A program made the translations under genes and the position numbers. From contig CAILEP010000021.1 of assembly GCA_903833275.1 (NCBI GenBank), positions 1 through 64,000 of the forward strand: a stretch of DNA of 64,000 bases, given 5' to 3'. The first letter of the stretch is position 1, and each line of letters starts with the position of its first letter. The notes below the pieces were generated by a model, which saw nothing but the letters and a program-made list of their open reading frames with translations, searched no databases and had not been told where the DNA came from. This document shows, piece after piece, positions 46,172 through 64,000 of the stretch. Source of the stretch: an uncultured Bdellovibrionales bacterium (lineage in GTDB: Bacteria > Bdellovibrionota > Bdellovibrionia > Bdellovibrionales > UBA1609).

Positions 46172-46191
46172 GACGAGGGTCAGGATGACCC
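46172..46191. repeat. REP-like hairpin, copy A
   Basis: GACGA then GGGTC-AGGAT-GACCC (46177-46191). The same layout with paired substitutions occurs at 58106-58125 (GGGCC-AGGAT-GGCCC). Conserved loop and compensated stem point to a structured interspersed repeat. Confidence 0.5.
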
Positions 46192-46318
46192 AAGCAGTCT
46201 TGCCGATTCGTCATGGCGGGGCCGCCGTTTTTGGTAATGTCCGAACAAAAAATACTCGACCTTTAGCCAGTACCATTTTTATCTCAAATTTTATTTTGTA
46301 TGCCTTGGGAATACAGTT

Positions 46319-46335
46319 GTATGCTATAAGCATAC
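46319..46335. promoter_or_regulatory. Short palindrome abutting the MNT start codon
   Basis: GTATGC (46319-46324) and GCATAC (46330-46335) flank TATAA and end 2 bp before the ATG at 46338. A further GTATGC half-site lies at 46298-46303. No Shine-Dalgarno sequence precedes the ATG, so this may be promoter plus operator of a leaderless message. Confidence 0.45.
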
Positions 46336-46337
46336 AT

Positions 46338-46916
46338 ATGAATTTATTAGCCGAGATCCTATCCAGCCAAGTTCGCGCCGAAATTTTTCGACTGCTATTT
46401 GGCGGCGACAAAGTTTCGATTCATTTGCGTGATTTACAACGCAAATCTGATCTGTCGATCGGAACAATTCAAAAAGAAATCGCTCATCTCAAAGAACTAG
46501 ATCTTGTTACTTCCGAACGCGATGGCAATCGGCTTTACTATACTGCAAATAGCGATCACCCGCTTTACAAAGAAATTTGTGGGCTCGTCGAAAAAACATC
46601 GGGCATCCCCGAACGGCTAAGAACAGCTTTGGCCCCAATAAAGGGCATCGAATGTGCGTTTATTTTTGGGTCGATTGCAAAGAGCGAAGAAAAAGCACAT
46701 AGTGATATTGATTTAATTGTGATTGGAAATGTCGGTCTTCGCGCGCTCTCTTCGATTTTTAAAAGCTTAACTGAACAGACAGGGCGCGAAATTAATCCCC
46801 ATATTTACTCGATGAAATCCTTGAAAGACAAGCTAAAGAAAAGAGACCACTTCATCAGAAGCGTTCTGAACGAAAAAAAGATTTTTTTAATTGGAGACGA
46901 AAATGTCCTTAGCTGA
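46338..46916 (+). CDS. Winged-HTH/nucleotidyltransferase (MNT-type) antitoxin-like protein
   Basis: 192 residues from ATG 46338. The N-terminal winged HTH (about 10-75; IGTIQKEIAHLKELDLVTSE) precedes a minimal nucleotidyltransferase domain with FIFGSIAKSEEKAHSDIDLIVIG, the GSx(10)DxD metal site. In MNT/HEPN systems the MNT protein modifies and neutralises its HEPN partner, which here overlaps by 14 bp downstream. The HTH fusion suggests it also regulates the operon. Confidence 0.82.
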   Translation: MNLLAEILSSQVRAEIFRLLFGGDKVSIHLRDLQRKSDLSIGTIQKEIAHLKELDLVTSERDGNRLYYTANSDHPLYKEICGLVEKTSGIPERLRTALAPIKGIECAFIFGSIAKSEEKAHSDIDLIVIGNVGLRALSSIFKSLTEQTGREINPHIYSMKSLKDKLKKRDHFIRSVLNEKKIFLIGDENVLS

Positions 46917-47340
46917 TTGGGCCAAGAACGCTTGGCTTCGTCCCCATAAATCAAGCAAAGAAGAAATCAAAAATCTTTTCGAAATCGTTGAGCGTGATCT
47001 CAAAGATGCGTCTGCCAAAGGCCTCTCCGACGACTGGCGCTTTGGGATTGCTTACAATGCAGCTTTAAAACTATGTACCATTCTTCTGCACACATCTGGA
47101 TATAGGCCCGAAAAAAACTTAGCCCATTATAGAACGCTTCAATCCTTACCGCTCATCTTGGGCGATAAGCACAAATCGAATGCCGATTACCTCGATGCCT
47201 GTCGCAAAAAACGCAATGAAACCGAATATGATTTCGCAGGAAATATCAGCGAAGGCGAAGCTCAAGAGCTACTCGAATTCTGCCGTGAACTAAAAACCGA
47301 AGTGTTAGCCTGGCTAAATAAAAATCAACCTGGTATGTAA
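46903..47340 (+). CDS. HEPN-domain protein, partner of the MNT gene
   Basis: 145 residues from ATG 46903, with GGAG at 46893-46896. It is all-helical, with a conserved-looking RKKRNETEYDF near residue 105, the position of the RNase motif Rx4-6[H/N] in HEPN toxins. The RNETEY form matches HEPN proteins next to MNT genes. Toxicity is inferred from the family. Ends at 47340, before a gene-free stretch. Confidence 0.72.
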   Translation: MSLADWAKNAWLRPHKSSKEEIKNLFEIVERDLKDASAKGLSDDWRFGIAYNAALKLCTILLHTSGYRPEKNLAHYRTLQSLPLILGDKHKSNADYLDACRKKRNETEYDFAGNISEGEAQELLEFCRELKTEVLAWLNKNQPGM

Positions 47341-48865: not shown

Positions 48866-49162
48866 TTACGATCTACCCCGCCAGATCATCGGATTTCTAC
48901 TGGCGTGAAAAACGGCGATCACAGTAATGGTCGATTTCGAGCTCGTGTAAAACACGCCGTAAGGAAAGCGCTTCACAAGAGCACGCCGCACATTTTTATA
49001 TATCAACTGAAAACCTTCAGGATTTCTTTCAACTTGATGTAGGGCCGCTTCAACGCATAACAGAAAGTCGGCTCCTAAACCGGCACTTTGCGCCTCGTAC
49101 CAGAGATAACTCTCAGCTAGCTCGGCCTCCGCTTCAGCGCGGATCAGAATTTCAAATTTCAT
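48866..49162 (-). CDS. RelE/ParE-type toxin
   Basis: 98 residues with the ParE fold pattern: RAEAEAELAESYLWYEAQ, FLLCVEAALHQVERNPEGFQ, ALVKRFPYGVFY and a final strand ITVIAVFHASRNP. ParE-like toxins act on gyrase, RelE-like ones on mRNA at the ribosome; the RFPY...V..VFH form favours ParE-type. The start overlaps the antitoxin stop as ATGA. It is the first gene pair of cassette 1 in the repeat array. Confidence 0.88.
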   Translation of the reverse strand: MKFEILIRAEAEAELAESYLWYEAQSAGLGADFLLCVEAALHQVERNPEGFQLIYKNVRRALVKRFPYGVFYTSSKSTITVIAVFHASRNPMIWRGRS

Positions 49163-49386
49163 CTCTTAGATTTTGCTTGAATACGTTTTTTAACTTGAGT
49201 CCACGAGCCGGCGACGGGCGAGGGATTTTCGAGCCTGTTGGCTAACTCAGCTTTTTGGGCTTGAGTAAGCGGGACGCTTTCAGGGTGAGACGCAATGCTA
49301 TCCCAAATTGCCTCAACGGCTAAAATTCTCTCAGGAATACTTAGCTGCAGGACTTTTTGAATTGAATCTTTTTTTCTAGCACCCAT
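49159..49386 (-). CDS. Addiction-module antitoxin (TIGR02574-type)
   Basis: The ATG at 49386 gives 75 residues. The helical sequence LSIPERILAVEAIWDSIASH and the Pro-rich ESVPLTQAQKAELANRL match the short addiction-module antitoxins that pair with ParE/RelE toxins. It precedes and overlaps the toxin by four bases, the normal order. The long open frame upstream of the ATG is non-coding. Confidence 0.82.
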   Translation of the reverse strand: MGARKKDSIQKVLQLSIPERILAVEAIWDSIASHPESVPLTQAQKAELANRLENPSPVAGSWTQVKKRIQAKSKR

Positions 49387-49503
49387 ATTTTTAAAATATA
49401 ACAGGTGTTGGACCCATCTGCCAGCCAAGAATTTTGGGGGCCGTAACTTGCGGAAAACGACATGCAGCAGAGGCCAGTTTACAACCGACGATGTCGAGGT
49501 CAA

Positions 49504-49815
49504 TTCTCATTCTGACGCGCCCCAATTTGAAACGACGATGCATTAGACAATGCAAAAACGATTGCCACCGAAATCAGCTCAATTTGATAAAAACTGTTCA
49601 TAACTGACTGATAGTAACCTCGTTGGCGGACTCGGTGATGGTTCCGCATGGCGGACAAAGCCAGTAAATGTACTATTAAAATAACAGGCGCCTGAAAAAC
49701 GCATAATTTCTTTCAGATCAGACTTGCGCTTTCCGTGAGACCAAAGATCATGGCCCGCGCCGTTGGCTTTAGACCCCCTATCTGAGTTTAACGTCTGGCG
49801 GAGAGAGCTCAATCA
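49504..49815. other. Gene-free stretch in cassette 1
   Basis: No recognisable gene. A minus-strand frame is open for 77 codons, but it has no good start or family. The stretch separates the ParE-type pair from repeat copy 2. Confidence 0.3.
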
Positions 49816-49944
49816 ATGGTGCGCAAGTCGCCCAAGTAGACGAACCGCATACCCTGTTTATATTCGAGTTAGAAGCATATCCAGAAGCCAAATCCCTGTC
49901 ATCTGCGGAATTAAGGGCGCTATATCGATCACTCAAGAGCTTTA
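49816..49944 (+). repeat. Array repeat copy 2
   Basis: ATG-GTG-CGC-AAG-TCG-CCC-AAG-TAG opens at 49816. The conserved -1 frame from 49821 matches copies 1 and 5 up to SLKSF, where identity stops at about 49944 in the last codons of the HigA-like gene. The continued frame ends at TAA 49962-49964. Confidence 0.85.
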
Positions 49945-50274
49945 GGCGCAGAGCTGATGAATAATCTTCCCAAGATTTTCTAAAGTAGGATTACCCTTAG
50001 GTGTAAGCATTCTAAATAATGTCCGCCTAGGGATACCCGCTTTTTGTGCGAGCTTATCTTTATTCGTAACTTCTAAATGACTTCGTAAAATTTCTTTAAA
50101 TGCTGCAATGTCATTTTCAACAAGGCACTGCCATAAGGCTTGAGCAACAACTTCCCGCTTTTGAAGACGCACGTCTGGGTTAAATGCTGCGATGCCTTTG
50201 CGGTTTTTTAAATTAACCGTTGGCAAATCGTTCAAGGAGAAGCCGCGCTTTTTGGATGTCTTTTTTCTGGGCAT
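49942..50274 (-). CDS. HigA-type antitoxin (XRE-like HTH)
   Basis: 110 residues: a basic start (MPRKKTSKKRG), then a helical domain with AFNPDVRLQKREVVAQALWQ and an HTH KLAQKAGIPRRTLFRMLTPKGNPTLENLGKII. This is the usual antitoxin of Gp49-like HigB toxins. It overlaps the toxin gene by 62 bp. The C-terminal codons abut repeat copy 2. Confidence 0.86.
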   Translation of the reverse strand: MPRKKTSKKRGFSLNDLPTVNLKNRKGIAAFNPDVRLQKREVVAQALWQCLVENDIAAFKEILRSHLEVTNKDKLAQKAGIPRRTLFRMLTPKGNPTLENLGKIIHQLCA

Positions 50275-53389: not shown

Positions 53390-53651
53390 TCAATCGGTCA
53401 AATCTGTATCGTTTTGATATTACTAGCAATTTTATTTTGGTGCGCAAGTCGCCCAAGTAGACGAACCGCGAACTACGTTTGTATTCGAGCTAGAAGCATA
53501 TCCGGAAGCCAAATCCCTGTCATCTGCTGAATTAAGGGCGCTATATCGATCTCTCAAGAGCTTTTATAAGGTCGCCGACCTTATCGGGGCCTCTGAAGCC
53601 TTCGCCCGCCAAAATGCCAACAAAACCAAAAAACAAAGGGGTTCTAAATGA
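53390..53651 (+). repeat. Array repeat copy 5: gene fragment coupled to the recombinase
   Basis: TTG-GTG-CGC-AAG-TCG-CCC-AAG-TAG opens at 53437. The -1 frame from 53442 runs 69 codons (FVFELEAYPEAKSLSSAELR, then SLKSFYKVADLIGASEAFAR and a basic tail) to TGA 53649-53651. This TGA overlaps the recombinase ATG as ATGA. The frame has no ordinary start codon of its own. The last helices (VADLIGASEAFARQN) look like an HTH. This is the most complete copy and probably the parent gene. Confidence 0.85.
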
Positions 53652-54319
53652 GTAAAGTAGCTTTATATGCACGTGTTTCAACAGACCAACAAGCGACAGG
53701 CCTCGAATCTCAGGTTCGAATCTTGAGAGATTACTGCACGAAAAACGATATTTCTAACTATGAGCTCTTCACCGATGAAGGCATCAGCGGAACAAAGTCA
53801 TCGAGGCCTGCGCTGGATCGAATGATCGCAGCTGTAAATAATGGCGAGATAAGCTCGGTCATCGTTTATTCGTTTTCGCGGTTCGCTAGAAGTACTACGC
53901 ATCTTCTAAATGCTTTAAATATCTTCAAAGCTAAAAACGTGGCGTTCGTTTCGATCACAGAAAAAATTGATACGAGTACACCTGTTGGACTTGCGGTTTT
54001 TAGTATTCTGGCGGCCATCAGCCAGCTAGAACGAGATTTGATCGCTGAAAGGGTCAAGGCCGGATTAGCTAACGCGCGGGCGAAGGGCAAACTTATTGGT
54101 AGAAAGAAAATGCGGGACTCAGACTTAATTCGCAAACTTTTAAAAGCCGGAATGACGTTTCGGCAGATTGCTTCAATCGCTCGTTGCTCACATGGCTCGG
54201 TTTGGGCGGAAAAGTCGGCAATGATGAAAGAAGACGCGGCAAAAGCATTGGCTGCATCACTACCGGAAGCAGCGCCACAAGTAATTTTTCCGGAAGTGAC
54301 TGCACAACCTGCGGCATGA
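53648..54319 (+). CDS. Small serine recombinase (resolvase/invertase family)
   Basis: 223 residues. The catalytic Ser11 is in LYARVSTDQQ, with the resolvase blocks VYSFSRFARSTTHL, STPVGLAVFSILAAISQLERDLIAERV and the linker GKLIGRKK. A C-terminal HTH (KAGMTFRQIASIARCSHGSV) and an Ala/Pro tail follow. AAAGGGG precedes the ATG, which overlaps repeat copy 5. It would resolve or invert DNA between specific sites. A strong hairpin ends the gene at 54371-54404. Confidence 0.94.
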   Translation: MSKVALYARVSTDQQATGLESQVRILRDYCTKNDISNYELFTDEGISGTKSSRPALDRMIAAVNNGEISSVIVYSFSRFARSTTHLLNALNIFKAKNVAFVSITEKIDTSTPVGLAVFSILAAISQLERDLIAERVKAGLANARAKGKLIGRKKMRDSDLIRKLLKAGMTFRQIASIARCSHGSVWAEKSAMMKEDAAKALAASLPEAAPQVIFPEVTAQPAA

Positions 54320-55553: not shown

Positions 55554-57305
55554 ATGTTACTGTCGACGGAAGTTCAGGCCGAAATTTTGAATCTTCACTT
55601 CAACGATCGCCGTTCGGTGAGGTCGATTTCCCGCCAGATGGGGGTTGACCGAAAAACTGTGCGGCGATTAATTGAGCGGCGAAAAGTTGAAACTAAGGCG
55701 AAGGTGGGCCCTCGTCGGTCAATTTTAGACCCATACACCGAGCAGATTCGAGATTTACTGCGCAAAGATCCAAAAATAACAGCGACGGCGATTTTAAATC
55801 AACTTCGACGGCAAGGTTATGCCGGCGGCATCAGCGTTTTAAAAAGCCTCGTGCAATATGAGCGGGCGCGATTTTTAAGGCCACGTGAAGCTTTTTTGCG
55901 ACTTGAGTTTCAGCCGGCTGAAGTGGCTCAAGTTGACTGGAGTGAGTTCGGCGACGTGTTTGGCGATGGCGTTAAAATCCACTGCTTTGCCATGGTACTT
56001 GCGTACTCTCGCTACATGTATATTGAATTTACGCGCTCTGAAAAGTTCGAAGAGTTTATCCGTTGCCACGAGAATGCGTTTAAATTTTTTAGCGGCGCGC
56101 CGAAAGAATGTTGGTATGACAATTTAGCTTCGGCCGTGAGTGACCGTATTGGTTCGCTTGTTCGATTTAACTCTCGTTTTTTGGCATACATGGCCCACCA
56201 TAGTGTGCGGCCACACGCCTGCAATGTGGCCAGCGGCAACGAAAAGGGGCGCGTTGAAGATTTAATTAAATATATTCGAATGAATTTTTGGCCCGGCCGA
56301 GAATTTAAAGATTTTGACGATTTAACGACTCAAGCCATTGTCTGGCGCAACCAAATCGCAAATGACCGTGAACATCGCTCTACCCGCAGGGTTGTGAGTC
56401 TTTTATTTGAATCTGAAGAGAAAAAAGAATTAATGCCATTAAACCCAACACCATATGGCACTGACGAGGTGTTCTCGCGGTCTGTGCCGCCAGACTTTCA
56501 CATACAATATGAAACCAATCGTTACTCTGTGCCGTGGACTCTTGTCGGCATGGTCGTCACGATCAGAGTGAATAATCTCGCGATTAAAGTTTATTACAAC
56601 GAAAAATACATCACCTCGCACCCACGAAGTTTTTTAAAAAATAAAGTTTTTACCCAAGAGACCCATCGGGCAGGCCTTTTAGAGAAAAAGCCTGGTGCCA
56701 CTCGCGAAACATGGCAGCTCAGCTACGTTAAAGAGCTTGGCGCTGAGATGTCAAAATACGTTGAGCTTATACGTCAGGGCCCTCGTTCGCTAAAACACGA
56801 ACTGAAACGTCTTGTCGCGCTTGTCACGATTTACGGCAAAGATATTGTAATCGAATCGTGCAAAGCTTGCATGGGTTCAGGTGTCGTCGGCGTTGACTCG
56901 ATTGAATTATACATCAAAAGGCAAAACCACCCGAGAGACACAAAAAGCAAACCAGAGCCGATTCAATTTACAAACGAGCGACTGAACCGGGTTGTGCCGG
57001 TGGTTGACCTGAGAAAGTACAACGCACTCTACTTCGAGGGGCAGTCAATGAGTGCGTCGGAGGATTTAAAAAATGAACGAAACGAACAACCCACTGATCG
57101 AGGGGCTATCGGAGCTGAGGCTCAAATACTGGGGCCAAACGATGCAAGAAGACCTTGCGACGATGAAAGAGCCCGATCGAGATGCGATAACAAAATACCT
57201 GAGCCGGTGGATCGAGAAAGAGAAAGCCGAGCGCAAAACACAGATGATACAGAGCAAAGTACGCTCAGCGAAGTTCCGCCGCCTTCAGACGGTCGAGAGT
57301 TTTGA
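55554..57305 (+). CDS. istA: IS21-family transposase IstA
   Basis: 583 residues: an N-terminal HTH (SVRSISRQMGVDRKTVRRLI), an rve integrase core with DDE residues in AQVDWSEFGD, CWYDNLASAV and ASGNEKGRVED, and a C-terminal beta-barrel-like domain. The last 77 residues (KNERNEQPTDRGAIG onward) overlap the istB start in another frame for 233 bp; they look like an unselected tail. AGGAG precedes the ATG. Confidence 0.95.
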   Translation: MLLSTEVQAEILNLHFNDRRSVRSISRQMGVDRKTVRRLIERRKVETKAKVGPRRSILDPYTEQIRDLLRKDPKITATAILNQLRRQGYAGGISVLKSLVQYERARFLRPREAFLRLEFQPAEVAQVDWSEFGDVFGDGVKIHCFAMVLAYSRYMYIEFTRSEKFEEFIRCHENAFKFFSGAPKECWYDNLASAVSDRIGSLVRFNSRFLAYMAHHSVRPHACNVASGNEKGRVEDLIKYIRMNFWPGREFKDFDDLTTQAIVWRNQIANDREHRSTRRVVSLLFESEEKKELMPLNPTPYGTDEVFSRSVPPDFHIQYETNRYSVPWTLVGMVVTIRVNNLAIKVYYNEKYITSHPRSFLKNKVFTQETHRAGLLEKKPGATRETWQLSYVKELGAEMSKYVELIRQGPRSLKHELKRLVALVTIYGKDIVIESCKACMGSGVVGVDSIELYIKRQNHPRDTKSKPEPIQFTNERLNRVVPVVDLRKYNALYFEGQSMSASEDLKNERNEQPTDRGAIGAEAQILGPNDARRPCDDERARSRCDNKIPEPVDRERESRAQNTDDTEQSTLSEVPPPSDGREF

Positions 57306-57852
57306 CTTTAGACACTCAAAAATGACCGAGAAAGTTGAAAAGCAATATCTCACTTTGCACCAGAGTATTAGTCGAGAAAACTTACCATCGGCCGTGTTCA
57401 CCGGCAATGCGGGCGCTGGCAAAACCCATCTTGCGCGAGCCCTTGGCTATGCCGCCTGCCAAAAAGGTCTAACCGTTTTATTTTTAACGGCAGCCGAAAT
57501 GGTGAACCAACTTCAGCACGCGCAAAAAACGTACAGCTTAGAAACAGAATTAAATAAATATCGGAGACCTCAGGTCTTAATCATTGATGAGTTGGGCTAC
57601 GTGGCTCTGGATACGCAGGCGAGCAACTTGTTCTTCCAGGTGATCTCGAGCCGACACGATGCAGAGCTTGGTACTATAGCTACTACCAATCTACCGTTCG
57701 GCCAGTTCAACCAGATCTTTGCAAACGACGCCATTGCCCATGCCATAGTAGATCGGCTCGTCAATGAGGCTGAGGTCTTTTTTATGGAGGGCGACTCTTA
57801 TAGGCCGCATCAGAGACAAGAAAAACTAAAGCGAAAAAAACAAAACGCTTAA
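57073..57852 (+). CDS. istB: IS21-family helper ATPase IstB
   Basis: 259 residues of the AAA+/DnaC-like family that selects target DNA for IstA. An N-terminal LRLKYWGQTMQED helix, Walker A TGNAGAGKTHLARAL, Walker B VLIIDELGYVAL, sensor IATTNLPFGQF and the closing FFMEGDSYRPHQ are all normal. It begins 233 bp before the istA stop. Confidence 0.95.
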   Translation: MNETNNPLIEGLSELRLKYWGQTMQEDLATMKEPDRDAITKYLSRWIEKEKAERKTQMIQSKVRSAKFRRLQTVESFDFRHSKMTEKVEKQYLTLHQSISRENLPSAVFTGNAGAGKTHLARALGYAACQKGLTVLFLTAAEMVNQLQHAQKTYSLETELNKYRRPQVLIIDELGYVALDTQASNLFFQVISSRHDAELGTIATTNLPFGQFNQIFANDAIAHAIVDRLVNEAEVFFMEGDSYRPHQRQEKLKRKKQNA

Positions 57853-58209: not shown

Positions 58210-61200
58210 TTACTTTATATTAGGTACTAAACTTTCTGTATTCGCCAGAATTTCAAAGTATCGGTTTAATAGATCTTCTGGGTCGAACGAACCGAAGGTT
58301 TTACTGTCACAGCTAAGCGTGCAAACGTACGTGTCATTTGACCTTTCCATTAACACGACGACATCGCAATCCCATCCCCAGCCGCGGGCCCCATCAGTTG
58401 AATAAGGCAAATCTATATTAATTGCTGGCAAATTATTAAAGCTAAGCGATTCAAAATCCAAAAAATTAAAATACAACTGCGGCCGATAAGCATCACAGAA
58501 AACCTCACTCTCTTTCGTCAATGGAAACAACTTGAAGAACGATACAATTTCATTTGAGAGTGTTTTTAAAAACCTCGCCTGCACAGTTCGAACGTGAGAA
58601 TTAAAATTCGAATTCGATGCTACCTCACACTTTTGAAGCGAAAGGTCAATGATGGGCCCCAAAACGCCATTCAGCTCGGGCTCGGTTCGGGCCATTTTCT
58701 GAATCAAAGTCAAAAATTTGTGGCGCCGCGTGGCTTCTGCGAAGGCCAGCTCAATTGCCGCCAAAAAAATTGAGTTTAATGAGTACCCCCCTGAGACCCT
58801 AAATTCTCGTAATGCATCACATGTTTTGCGACCCAATCGCCGCACATGAAAGCTACGCTCTACAACATTTTTCTGCGCTTTGACCTTTTGAGAGTATTGC
58901 CACTGAAATTGTTTTGAGTTTGTTTCTATACGCTTAAGCGTCTGTTCTAAATCGACCTTCTTCGCGTTTTCACGCTCCCATGTCGCAAAGTCGGCAAACT
59001 GAACCGGTTGCTCGAGCGACTTGCGCTTACTTTCAGACGATAATGTCTCATAGTTTTTAGAGATCTCACGCAAAACAATCTCAAATGAAACACCGTCAAA
59101 AATCAAGTGGTGAGCCCAAATCAAAATTGTGTGCCTTGTCTTACTGTGCTGCCAAAGATCACATCCGAACAATCTATCTCTGCCTAGGTCGCAAATTCGT
59201 TGCTCAAGCTCACCAATTCTTTTTTTTAGAAACTTATTTTGCTTTGCGCCACTAAGAGATGAAAGATTCACAAAACGAAAATAATTTGCAAAGCTCTTTT
59301 TAGCCTTCAACTTGTATTTTCCTGATTTTTTTGTAAATGCCGCCCGTAAGATTTCATGTCGTGACACAGTTAGCTCAACAGACTTCTTAAATCTTTTTAA
59401 ATAAATCGAACTCGTCACGTCATAGGCCCGCATTATTAAATATCCCCGCGGATCGCGATCGACCATTTCAAGAACTGTCTCTTGAAAATAAGAAGGGCTT
59501 ACTAAATTGCCACGACTGACTTTTCTTAACCTTGATTTTTTAGTCGTGCTCAATTTAATCGATTCGCCTGCCAAAAGCCTTAACTTGTCAATTTCTGAAA
59601 CAATCGCAGCTAAATTCTTTGAGCTAAAAATATCACTCACTTCTAACGATACATTGAAGGTTCGCTCAATTAGTGACCTTAACTGCATAGCCTGAATAGA
59701 ATTTCCGCCAAGCGCCAAAAAGTTATCTGAGAAATTGATTTTCTCTTCGCCGAATAAGGTCTGAAAAACTTTTAATAACTTAACCTCTGTCGCCGTCTTC
59801 GCCTCTATTGTTGTTGCTTTTTCAGTTCGTACCACCCCCGCTTTATTTGGGGGCAATTCATTTTTGGACAAAAGCGCCATTCGGGCGATTTTTCCGTTCG
59901 GAAGGCGAGGCAGTTTGGCAATTGCAATAAGCTTTTGTGGAATGGCTTGGCGGGGCAGGTAAGACGTCAAAAATTTTTGCAAGTCACCTGGCGAAATGCC
60001 ACCAACATAATGGGCAGATAGAATTTTTTGCCCATTATCTAGGGCATGGTAGATAACCGCGACCTCACGCACTTCATTGCACTTTAAAATTGCATTCTCA
60101 ATCTCGCCAATTTCGACCCGAACACCATTAATTTTGATCTGATTGTCTTTTCTGCCCAAAACTTGAATTTTGCCATTTGGCAATCGGCGGGCTACATCGC
60201 CCGTTTTGTAAAGACTCAGCTTTTCACCGTTTAATAAAATATCTTTCAAGAACAACTTTTTATTTAAATCTGGAGCATTTAAGTAGCCAAGGCTCTGATA
60301 GGGCGTGTGAATATATAAATCACCGATTGCATTTTTCTCGACGACCTTCAATTTGCCATCGAGCACAAAGCCCTTAGCGAAATCTATGGGGTAACCAACT
60401 GGTATTACCGGCAACAGTAAATCATTTTTGTCTATGATATTATAGAATTTAGCCAAGGTGGTTTCTGTTGGGCCGTATAGATTTACTAATCTAACTTTGA
60501 ACCCTGGCCTTTTGTATAGCGGCGCGACATCTTGCGAACGAAGAACTTCGCCAGCCAAAAAGATAACCTTTAAGTTTGAGTTTTTGAAATTAAACTCATT
60601 TTTTACAAAATACTCTCGAAAAAGAGTAGGCACTATGTGAACGTGACTTATTCGCTTCTCGTGCAACCATCTAGAAAACCTTTCTAGATTAAGTATCGTG
60701 TTTTCGTCGGGTATTACACATACCCCACCATTTACCAATGGCAAAAATATGTCGCGCAATGAAGGGTCGAATCCAATAGCGGTTAAGAAACTTACTCGAG
60801 TTTTCTGGTCGCAATTAAATGTTTTGCTTTGCCATTCTATAAACTGACAAAGGCCCTTATAGCTTCCCATAATTGCCTTTGGCTCGCCCGTTGAACCAGA
60901 AGTAAAGAAAATGTAAGATTCATCGCTTCTGCTCGCGTACCCTGACTTTTTATTTAGTGCCCGTTTATTTTTTAAATTCTCGATTGAAACGCCAAAATTT
61001 TTTTCACTCAATCCGATCTTAGTTAAAATTTCGGCATCAGAACAACGATCACATGTAAGAACCAAATCTGGATTGGCAATCTCAACAATACGTAATAAGC
61101 GCTGCTCTGGGCTATTAATCGCAATCGTTGAAAATGGAATGTTCGCTTTTAACGCGGCTAAAATGGCGATAATCATTTCTGGCGAGCGCGGCATTAAAAT

Positions 61201-61380
61201 CAAAACTCGTTTCGATTTCTTACAACGCCGTCTTAACGTCATGGCTAAATAATCACTCATGACCTTAAGCTCATTGTATGAAATTGAGCTTGCTTCACTC
61301 TCTATCGCCGCTGCCTCTGGTCTATTCTTAGCCCACCATTCAATTGAATCTATAACTGAAAGTAGCTTTTTTCGAGACAT
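58210..61380 (-). CDS. Nonribosomal peptide synthetase module, order A-PCP-C
   Basis: 1056 residues. Adenylation domain (about 10-510): FTSGSTGEPKA (159-169), IGFDPS (202-207, holds the amino-acid-binding Asp), LYGPTETT, YKTGDVARRL, GRKDNQIKINGVRVEIGEIE and PNGKI. Carrier domain with Ser561 in DNFLALGGNSIQ. C-terminal condensation-type domain (about 625-1045) with RHEILRAAF and the active-site HHLIFDGVS (757-765). A-PCP-C, with no thioesterase, is unusual for a single protein; it could load one residue and condense it with an acceptor supplied in trans. GGGGAG precedes the ATG. The region is A+T-richer than its neighbours. Confidence 0.92.
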   Translation of the reverse strand: MSRKKLLSVIDSIEWWAKNRPEAAAIESEASSISYNELKVMSDYLAMTLRRRCKKSKRVLILMPRSPEMIIAILAALKANIPFSTIAINSPEQRLLRIVEIANPDLVLTCDRCSDAEILTKIGLSEKNFGVSIENLKNKRALNKKSGYASRSDESYIFFTSGSTGEPKAIMGSYKGLCQFIEWQSKTFNCDQKTRVSFLTAIGFDPSLRDIFLPLVNGGVCVIPDENTILNLERFSRWLHEKRISHVHIVPTLFREYFVKNEFNFKNSNLKVIFLAGEVLRSQDVAPLYKRPGFKVRLVNLYGPTETTLAKFYNIIDKNDLLLPVIPVGYPIDFAKGFVLDGKLKVVEKNAIGDLYIHTPYQSLGYLNAPDLNKKLFLKDILLNGEKLSLYKTGDVARRLPNGKIQVLGRKDNQIKINGVRVEIGEIENAILKCNEVREVAVIYHALDNGQKILSAHYVGGISPGDLQKFLTSYLPRQAIPQKLIAIAKLPRLPNGKIARMALLSKNELPPNKAGVVRTEKATTIEAKTATEVKLLKVFQTLFGEEKINFSDNFLALGGNSIQAMQLRSLIERTFNVSLEVSDIFSSKNLAAIVSEIDKLRLLAGESIKLSTTKKSRLRKVSRGNLVSPSYFQETVLEMVDRDPRGYLIMRAYDVTSSIYLKRFKKSVELTVSRHEILRAAFTKKSGKYKLKAKKSFANYFRFVNLSSLSGAKQNKFLKKRIGELEQRICDLGRDRLFGCDLWQHSKTRHTILIWAHHLIFDGVSFEIVLREISKNYETLSSESKRKSLEQPVQFADFATWERENAKKVDLEQTLKRIETNSKQFQWQYSQKVKAQKNVVERSFHVRRLGRKTCDALREFRVSGGYSLNSIFLAAIELAFAEATRRHKFLTLIQKMARTEPELNGVLGPIIDLSLQKCEVASNSNFNSHVRTVQARFLKTLSNEIVSFFKLFPLTKESEVFCDAYRPQLYFNFLDFESLSFNNLPAINIDLPYSTDGARGWGWDCDVVVLMERSNDTYVCTLSCDSKTFGSFDPEDLLNRYFEILANTESLVPNIK

Positions 61381-61532
61381 GGTGAAAGCTCCCCTATCGA
61401 CCAGCTTCGCATGTTAACAAGAGTAAATACCGATACATATATTCGGAATGGCCAGCATGCTTCTTTACTCACATTACCTGCCATTACATAATATCCAGAC
61501 CTGATGTAGAAATTCGGACTATTCTACAAAGC

Positions 61533-62828
61533 TCAAAGACTAGGCTTTTTGTCTAGACCTAGTCGCATGTTATAAAAATACAAAAAACTATTGTCTAAAA
61601 TGTGGGGCAATACCAATCCGATCGCGGCCCCGTAAGGGCCAAAGACTTTAGCTAAATAATATAGCGCAGGCATCCCCACCAAATAATCGAATACCAAGAT
61701 CCCAATTGTTCTTTGCGACATTTTACCGTCTAAACGAATCTTGCTTCTAATGCCTAGGGTTAATACGCTCGGAACCCCACCCAAAATAGTCGCTATGCCC
61801 ACGATAATGGCGTGCTCAGAATTTAAATTAAAAAACGAACTAAATAGAAAGCTGCAAGAAATTATTAATAAAATATATGGCAAACCATTTAGAAGCAAAG
61901 ACATGTTACGAATTGTTCGTAGACCACTAAACCACTCTCGTTCGCCTCTGAAACTCTTGAGTTCTATCAATAGACTTGTTGCAAAAATTGAAACCGCGAA
62001 AAACATATTTGCCCAGACGTCAAGTATGCGAAACGACAAGCTGTAGCCCGCTACGCTATCACTGTCTAATGTACGCTCTACCAAAAGTGTGATTATAAAT
62101 GGCAACGGGAATGTCCAGGCTTGCATTGTCAGCTCATTAACTAAATATTTTTTCGATTCAACAAGAAAACTTTTAATTCTCGCCAAGCTAATCATGAAAA
62201 ACTTCTTTAAAGTAAGACAGCTTACCGCAACACCGACACCCAAGCTAACTGCATAAGCCAAGCTATAAAATAAAAATTTTGACTTTTCACTGGTAAACAA
62301 AGGGCCCATAAGCACTACAATGATAATGTTCGTTACCAAAGGTGAGACGTTAGAGATAAATAGCATCTTGTTGTTATCAATTGAAGATAAGAAAAAGAAA
62401 TTAAGGTAGCAAAGGCCGTTTAAAAAAGTCAGCGCAAGCCATATAAATAGAAGCATTTTGCTGTCTGGCAACGTACTCAAACCTAAAATGTTTAAAACAT
62501 TTTGCGAGAATACTAATATCAGAACGGTAACCAAAAGGCTAAAAAGTATGTAAACCCCTAATGCCCCACTAAAATTATTTCTGATTCGACTTATTCGCAA
62601 GTCATGGCCGATTACAATCATGCAAGATTGCCCCAGTGCAAAGCTTGCAATATCAAAGAAAAGACCAACGAATATTAAGAGTGAAAATGCATTTAAATAA
62701 TTAAGAGATAGGCCTGAAGCCAACCACTGCCCGAACAAAAAATGACACTGTATAAATACGGCACTGCCGAAATTAGAGAATATTTGCCGCAAATAATTTA
62801 CATTCTTTCGCTCCACCTCTTGATGCAC
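61533..62828 (-). CDS. MATE-like multidrug/lipid exporter family protein
   Basis: 431 residues with 12 predicted helices and no long loops, in the MOP superfamily (MATE or flippase). GTG start with GGGAG. Blocks such as FGQWLASGLSLNYLNAFSLL and VAGYSLSFRILDVWANMFF fit MATE proteins; charged residues in helices are few. It sits between the synthetase and the SET gene in the same direction, so export of the product or an intermediate is the likely role. Confidence 0.78.
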   Translation of the reverse strand: MHQEVERKNVNYLRQIFSNFGSAVFIQCHFLFGQWLASGLSLNYLNAFSLLIFVGLFFDIASFALGQSCMIVIGHDLRISRIRNNFSGALGVYILFSLLVTVLILVFSQNVLNILGLSTLPDSKMLLFIWLALTFLNGLCYLNFFFLSSIDNNKMLFISNVSPLVTNIIIVVLMGPLFTSEKSKFLFYSLAYAVSLGVGVAVSCLTLKKFFMISLARIKSFLVESKKYLVNELTMQAWTFPLPFIITLLVERTLDSDSVAGYSLSFRILDVWANMFFAVSIFATSLLIELKSFRGEREWFSGLRTIRNMSLLLNGLPYILLIISCSFLFSSFFNLNSEHAIIVGIATILGGVPSVLTLGIRSKIRLDGKMSQRTIGILVFDYLVGMPALYYLAKVFGPYGAAIGLVLPHILDNSFLYFYNMRLGLDKKPSL

Positions 62829-62867
62829 TTAATTACTCCCTTATTTTTCATGAATCGAACTTACAAA

Positions 62868-63404
62868 CTAGCCATTCTTTTTTAATTTCGGTAAATTGAG
62901 CTGCACGACTATATAATCTAGAAGCAGATTATTCTCATAATAATACATCAATCTATGCTTTGGGATCGTGCCAACAGAACTTGCAATTTTTCGACAACTC
63001 GCTGCTAGGCAATTGCAATTCATCTTCCACCAGGTTTTCTCAATACCCACTGTGGCCGAGTAATCGTACGTAACTTCTTCGCCCGGCAGAATATCTCGTG
63101 CTGCGATCAAATCAGATTCGCTAACGACCGCCGCATTTGGTTCGCAACAGTGATTAAAGCTTTTGCCAAATGGCTCAAGCGAAATATAGGTGTCTGAATC
63201 TATTTGCAGACCGTCATCTACGGTAATTTTGCCAGCATCAATCAAGCTGTTCATGTAATCTAACGAGCCCTTATCGCCGGTAAGAGTATAGATTTGAGAC
63301 CCTTTTTGAATGAAATCTTCTGTAAATATACCATGCCCGCCAATTTTAGACGGAGCACTATAGAGGCGAAACCGAGCCGCTTTTAGCGGCGAATTACGAT
63401 TCAT
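62868..63404 (-). CDS. SET-domain protein-lysine methyltransferase-like
   Basis: 178 residues with the SET landmarks in order: GIFTEDFIQKGSQIYTL, FNHCCEPNAAV (NHxCxPN, 84-90), GEEVTYDY (108-115) and the post-SET zinc-type CNCLAASC (130-137). Catalytic Tyr is present in TYDY. In bacteria SET proteins are rare; some modify small molecules or carrier-bound residues in biosynthetic clusters. First gene of the SET-exporter-synthetase run, 39 bp before the exporter. Confidence 0.85.
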   Translation of the reverse strand: MNRNSPLKAARFRLYSAPSKIGGHGIFTEDFIQKGSQIYTLTGDKGSLDYMNSLIDAGKITVDDGLQIDSDTYISLEPFGKSFNHCCEPNAAVVSESDLIAARDILPGEEVTYDYSATVGIEKTWWKMNCNCLAASCRKIASSVGTIPKHRLMYYYENNLLLDYIVVQLNLPKLKKNG

Positions 63405-63471
63405 AACCTACCCATTCTGATAAGGTTATTTAACTATATTCTTAACATAATAGGTAGTCCATATCGCAATT

Positions 63472-63525
63472 TGAGACCGCAACCTGAATGTCAGTTTCGA
63501 AAATTTTGTTCTGTAACCGGTCTCA
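63472..63525. promoter_or_regulatory. Spaced inverted repeat between divergent genes
   Basis: TGAGACCG (63472-63479) and CGGTCTCA (63518-63525) are perfect 8-bp arms, 38 bp apart, in the intergenic region shared by the SET-led operon and the divergent desaturase. They may be operator half-sites for a regulator acting on both sides. No promoter could be placed. Confidence 0.4.
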
Positions 63526-63631
63526 CTTCAAGACATTCTTTAGTCAAGAATTGTTAGCTTTATACCGATGTTGGTACTGTAAAAAGCAGCTTATTCGCCA
63601 AAGAGCGATTAAGAACCGATCGGAATACCTT

Positions 63632-64000
63632 ATGAATAGTACTTCTCTCAAGAAACCAGCGATCCCAAAAGAATTATACGCAAAAACAAACTTCGAGCTT
63701 TTGCTCTTATCTTCAGGCCCATTACTTTGTATAATGATAGGCTCGACCTTGGCAGTTCTCGCCTATAAACACTTATTCTGCTCACCTAACTTACTTCTAG
63801 TTTTTGCGTCAATACCCATTCTGATGGTTATGCCAATACTGTCAGGCTTAGGTATGATTTCTATGGCCTACCTGGCACACGACGGTGGGCATGGGTCGCT
63901 TCACAAAAACTTTAAGATCAGCTTTTTACTGGGCGTACTCGGTTCTAGTATTGTGCCCGGGTATTTCGGTGGCACCGCCTTTAACTGTGGCCATTTCAGC
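63632..64000 (+). CDS. Fatty acid desaturase-like membrane protein (cut by window end)
   Basis: The frame from ATG 63632 is open to the window end (123 codons). Two hydrophobic stretches precede AHDGGHGSLHKN, the first histidine box (HDxxHxSLH) of membrane di-iron desaturases; GTAFNCGHFS closes the visible part. Later His boxes lie beyond the edge. It is divergent from the SET-led operon and may tailor a lipid part of its product. Confidence 0.8.
   Translation, partial: MNSTSLKKPAIPKELYAKTNFELLLLSSGPLLCIMIGSTLAVLAYKHLFCSPNLLLVFASIPILMVMPILSGLGMISMAYLAHDGGHGSLHKNFKISFLLGVLGSSIVPGYFGGTAFNCGHFS

Follow-up and report, generated by a model that had tools for sequence, protein, structure and literature searches.

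The right end of the window (the whole stretch of DNA analysed, 64,000 nucleotides, C21:1-64000) and the contig sequence beyond it carry an orphan, unusual and small nonribosomal peptide synthetase (NRPS) island, which is with little doubt a laterally acquired biosynthetic block flanked by insertion sequences (IS), and which probably makes and exports a small amino-acid conjugate (Table 1). The source assembly comprises 3.08 Mb in 35 contigs and is 97% complete; the contig itself ends at 68830. A preliminary description of the window had proposed an A-PCP-C synthetase accompanied by a SET protein, an exporter and a desaturase facing away from them; the placement of the first three genes and the divergent orientation of the desaturase were confirmed. 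Following the cluster past position 64000 added an amidohydrolase with an apparent signal peptide, a free acyl carrier protein (ACP), an FkbH protein and the end of an IS3-family element. On the minus strand the membrane protein and SET genes lie upstream of the synthetase, the three same-strand genes being separated by gaps of 152 bp (synthetase to membrane protein) and 39 bp (membrane protein to SET), and the desaturase diverges from them. As the contig stops just past the FkbH gene, genes may be missing from the island as assembled.

Table 1. Genes of the NRPS island and its flanking insertion elements on contig C21
Feature	Position	Strand	Evidence and remarks
IS21-family istA + istB	55554..57852	+	Mu-transpos_C_2/rve, IstB_IS21 (Pfam); left flank of island
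A-PCP-C nonribosomal peptide synthetase, 1056 aa	58210..61380	-	Pfam, pocket code, C-domain fold model
Polytopic membrane protein, putative exporter	61533..62828	-	10 hydrophobic segments
Small SET-domain methyltransferase, post-SET Cys motif	62868..63404	-	PF00856 3.8e-9, alignment, tree
Membrane fatty-acid-desaturase-type protein	63488..64639 (likelier start 63632)	+	FA_desaturase 4e-21
Amidohydrolase, beyond window	64643-66655	-	Amidohydro_3 3e-55
Free carrier protein (ACP), 75 aa, beyond window	66733-66960	-	Profile match 5e-6
FkbH protein, beyond window	66957-68588	-	TIGR01686 245.9 bits
IS3-family end, right flank	about 68709-68830		C-terminus of transposase

The A+T richness from which the preliminary description had suspected acquisition is real by base composition: GC3 was 0.35-0.42 in all seven island genes, against a native value of 0.542 (sd 0.041; mean over 24 open reading frames in the first 46 kb that encode 250 aa or more). 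Acquisition is further supported by the IS21 element on the left, the IS3-family end on the right and the lack of close relatives in related genomes. The synthetase had no ortholog among 60 relatives, 144 genomes of the class or 369 of the phylum, in which the matches were ordinary adenylating enzymes and NRPSs only (22-35% identity); a contig scan with six exact peptides returned distant NRPSs only, and relatives may exist outside the phylum. Matches to FkbH within the class reached 27-32% identity, the desaturase had a single marginal homolog among the 60 relatives, and the membrane protein had one homolog, 21% identical, in 359 phylum genomes. Because the synthetase, FkbH, exporter and desaturase are without close relatives in the genomes searched, we regard the island as foreign. 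At its very end the contig encodes the C-terminal residues of an IS3-family transposase (DERPHSSIGMRTPSAFEREFEN*, from direct reading), and this piece is repeated on other contigs. Misassembly at the IS21 join was considered and a chimera found unlikely, since the assembly holds one full IS21 copy (the left flank) and one partial copy at 83%, and the right-end IS3 piece has a 100% match on other contigs of the same genome. Further to the left, a nucleotidyltransferase-like gene (with HTH) stands beside a HEPN-like small gene (46185-47340), by eye resembling an MNT-HEPN toxin-antitoxin pair, and further small genes (49159-50274) look like addiction-module and HTH antitoxin genes; transposase remnants and a resolvase (53648-54319) lie in the same region.

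Pfam confirmed the A-PCP-C order without a release domain that had been read from the sequence: AMP-binding at residues 14-367 (E = 7e-55), PP-binding at 534-595 (6e-12) and Condensation at 636-952 (9e-36), and the roughly 100 residues between there and the stop make up the rest of the C domain. Core motifs are intact (FTSGSTGEPK, NLYGPTETT, YKTGD, GRKDNQIKINGVRVE and NGKIAR; the PCP has LGGNS and the C domain HHLIFDG). Neither the synthetase nor any Pfam match of the neighbouring proteins up to the contig end revealed a release domain, and the C domain of the synthetase is the sole condensation domain of the whole assembly. The three domains, each with its core motifs complete, together with a phosphopantetheinyl transferase (PPTase) encoded in the same genome for PCP activation (a 246-aa Sfp/AASDHPPT-type protein on contig C15), place the protein among NRPS modules. 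The C domain keeps the HHxxxDG catalytic motif plus the invariant Arg and Gly, is <19% identical to any C domain compared, and sits on a long branch in the tree; with the long branch and weak support (0.88), assignment to a subtype from the tree was dropped. A model built from 21 sequences (pLDDT 71.5, pTM 0.76) matched solved C domains in Foldseek, CmnI best, and shows a predicted C fold that is genuine and unusual, with no indication of the acceptor.

Using the GrsA sequence, verified against PDB 1AMU, as reference, the ten residues of the adenylation pocket, the specificity code that the preliminary description had called for, were read as DPRHFALLAK, with Asp235 and Arg239 both present. 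Asp235 marks an alpha-amino acid as the predicted substrate. Arg239 presumably points to an acidic side chain, judging from known pockets, and we take the code as a whole to resemble those for alpha-aminoadipate in Lys2 and ACV synthetase. A literature search for pocket-code strings returned nothing relevant, and so the predicted substrate is held to an alpha-amino acid, perhaps an acidic one. A maximum-likelihood tree grouped the A domain with the starter A domain of a large Burkholderiales NRPS (L073; code DVRNFALLAK; support 99/92) and placed it in a clade (100/97) with that of a free-standing A-PCP-C protein of Tenacibaculum larymnensis (1082 aa, L074:9485-12733) encoded between large NRPS genes. 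The architecture of the island synthetase thus has a precedent with the same three domains and an A domain in one supported clade; unlike the island, the T. larymnensis locus has a KamA-family gene and large NRPS genes alongside, and the two C domains do not group. The KamA-family radical SAM gene (2,3-aminomutase-like) adjoins the T. larymnensis A-PCP-C gene (L074:8140-12733) and suggests loading of a beta-amino acid there, so a beta-amino acid is worth considering for the island synthetase too.

The FkbH protein, a putative glyceryl transferase/phosphatase, scored far above the curated cut-off of TIGR01686 (245.9 versus 146.65 bits), its gene overlaps that of the free ACP, and the pair probably loads glycerate. 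The preliminary description had envisaged a single amino acid joined to a lipid or amine; one residue joined to another moiety is reasonable from A-PCP-C, whereas the FkbH-ACP pair beyond position 64000 shifts the likeliest partner to glycerate. In NRPS lines FkbH replaces an A domain, and the glycerate of vioprolide is esterified by a C domain (PMC8949500); the loading modules of vioprolide and corramycin have the order FAAL-ACP-C-HAD-T (PMC10099666). By analogy with this logic in split form, it is quite possible, and is put forward tentatively, that an aminoacyl-PCP and a glyceryl-ACP are joined by the C domain of the synthetase. The domain identities are established, and on substrates, acceptor, SET role and release we infer the following. 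A single alpha-amino acid, its side chain probably acidic, would be activated by the A domain and loaded onto the PCP, and FkbH would convert 1,3-bisphosphoglycerate to dephosphorylated glycerate on the free ACP. The C-terminal C domain would then join aminoacyl-PCP and glyceryl-ACP as an ester, most likely via a glyceryl hydroxyl. Methylation by the SET protein may act on a small substrate or on a protein of the cluster. The product, which the desaturase and amidohydrolase may tailor, would leave the cell through the membrane protein.

Like the loading modules of vioprolide and corramycin, the island combines a loaded carrier and a further one with a C domain and an FkbH enzyme, and the proposed joining of glycerate through the C domain is likewise that of vioprolide (PMC8949500, PMC10099666). 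It differs in that the parts are split over three genes (A-PCP-C, FkbH and ACP), that it begins with an amino-acid A domain rather than FAAL, and that no downstream modules are known; C, FkbH and T do not stand in one module as in the vioprolide type, to which the island is likened in its working only. Against the glycerate reading, some 5.4 kb and the opposite-strand desaturase separate the FkbH-ACP pair from the start of the synthetase gene downstream of it, the combination did not turn up in another genome, and no release enzyme was identified in the island. In favour of it, FkbH with a nearby ACP recurs in the majority of seven class relatives that were inspected; the context of these pairs is nevertheless mostly that of an apparent surface-glycan locus lacking an NRPS, so the link to the synthetase is one that we infer with less than even confidence. 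Loci of the same class with FkbH and a nearby free carrier-protein gene include L105, L107, L108, L109 and L110, several of which have an apparent surface-glycan context (nonulosonic acid, acyltransferase).

Alternatively, the terminal C domain could transfer the amino acid from the PCP to a free amine such as putrescine, releasing it as an aminoacyl amide, with FkbH-ACP unrelated. An A-PCP-C protein without a release domain fits such a route, and the C domain of the terminal module condenses putrescine with the peptide in glidonin, the same being proposed for malleobactin and bicornutin (PMC10587159). These systems resemble the island in that the final condensation is by a C-terminal C domain (PMC10587159), but theirs ends long peptide lines while the island has one module; the island also holds no amine-forming decarboxylase, and the co-acquired FkbH and ACP would be left unexplained. 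We consider amine release rather unlikely, with about one chance in a few. Less likely again is that the synthetase is a loading module for further NRPS or polyketide synthase (PKS) parts, lost or unassembled past the contig end. The contig does terminate at an IS copy, and the A domain groups with the Burkholderiales starter A domain and with a T. larymnensis protein encoded amid large NRPS genes; against this, the 97%-complete assembly has no other condensation domain in a search confined to NRPS parts. The glycerate conjugate remains our preferred reading.

The SET protein can be aligned with other small SET proteins of bacteria, and both the NHxCxPN motif and an intact post-SET Cys motif are present. 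The earlier view of it as a rare bacterial SET protein was overstated, as 14 of 143 class genomes had a match and the same genome has a second SET gene. That gene (G000:C8:156539-156949) belongs to a clade common in related bacteria, is not beside an NRPS, and by eye adjoins coproporphyrinogen-oxidase-like radical SAM and HrpB-like helicase genes. Methylation of a free residue, as had been suggested, has a precedent in BurB, a small SET enzyme in biosynthesis that converts methionine to S-methylmethionine (PMC7496086, PMC12542666); on the other hand, the island protein is not of the BurB clade, and Asp235 with Arg239 in the pocket argues against a sulfonium or methyl-lysine as A-domain substrate. 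In the SET tree it paired with a standalone SET protein (0.955) and BurB with one from Sphingomonas (0.999); the nearest relative found (G088, 41% identity) stands alone beside a sigma factor gene. A PDB match had led us to consider a BurB ortholog making S-methylmethionine for the synthetase, which was rejected on the tree and the A pocket. The likeness to the bur cluster of Burkholderia thailandensis is a small SET protein within a thiotemplate gene cluster. The differences are the SET clade, the A domain (BurA-type, DMSP-activating A domains lack Asp235, which the island's A domain keeps) and the lack of a BurI-type PLP decarboxylase in the island (Pfam on its proteins). A clear BurB relative (2e-32) was observed among signalling genes on plasmid NZ_CP032828.1 of Sphingomonas paeninsulae, an Antarctic soil bacterium, directly followed by an Orn/DAP-type PLP decarboxylase (L068:11869-13607), a pair matching the first two BurB-route steps to DMSP.

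It is improbable that insertion elements placed SET, desaturase and FkbH-ACP beside the synthetase and exporter by chance, and that these two alone belong together: the 41%-identical SET protein stands alone, the genome's other SET gene is not beside an NRPS and FkbH-ACP pairs exist without one, but SET, exporter and synthetase genes are same-strand and closely spaced and low GC3 is common to all these genes. Synthetase, SET and exporter genes were not found together in another genome, nor was this synthetase found in a second one, in the class and phylum genomes searched, so the association of the genes rests on one locus. The proposed exporter is polytopic (a simple Kyte-Doolittle scan gave its hydrophobic segments) and matches no known family, with no hit in Pfam, NCBIfam, PDB or plasmids. 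With MATE/MOP exporters in view (family profile, 12-helix fold), the analysis gave no Pfam match, 10 segments by that simple scan and a single-sequence structure model (pLDDT 44) that was discarded as unusable.

The individual enzymes of the island are of known kinds, and the combination of A-PCP-C, split FkbH-ACP and SET was not found elsewhere in the genomes searched. At its fullest, the locus might be a split minimal NRPS line in which FkbH supplies glycerate on a carrier of its own, the C domain of the one-module synthetase joins it to an amino acid as an ester, and a SET protein outside the BurB clade methylates small molecules. SET enzymes would then have been drawn into natural-product chemistry a second time, independently; taken together, this is a long shot. 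The small size of the cluster makes full in vitro reconstitution feasible, and activity of the SET protein on the product, if it occurs, would add to BurB an independent example of small-molecule SET chemistry (PMC7496086).
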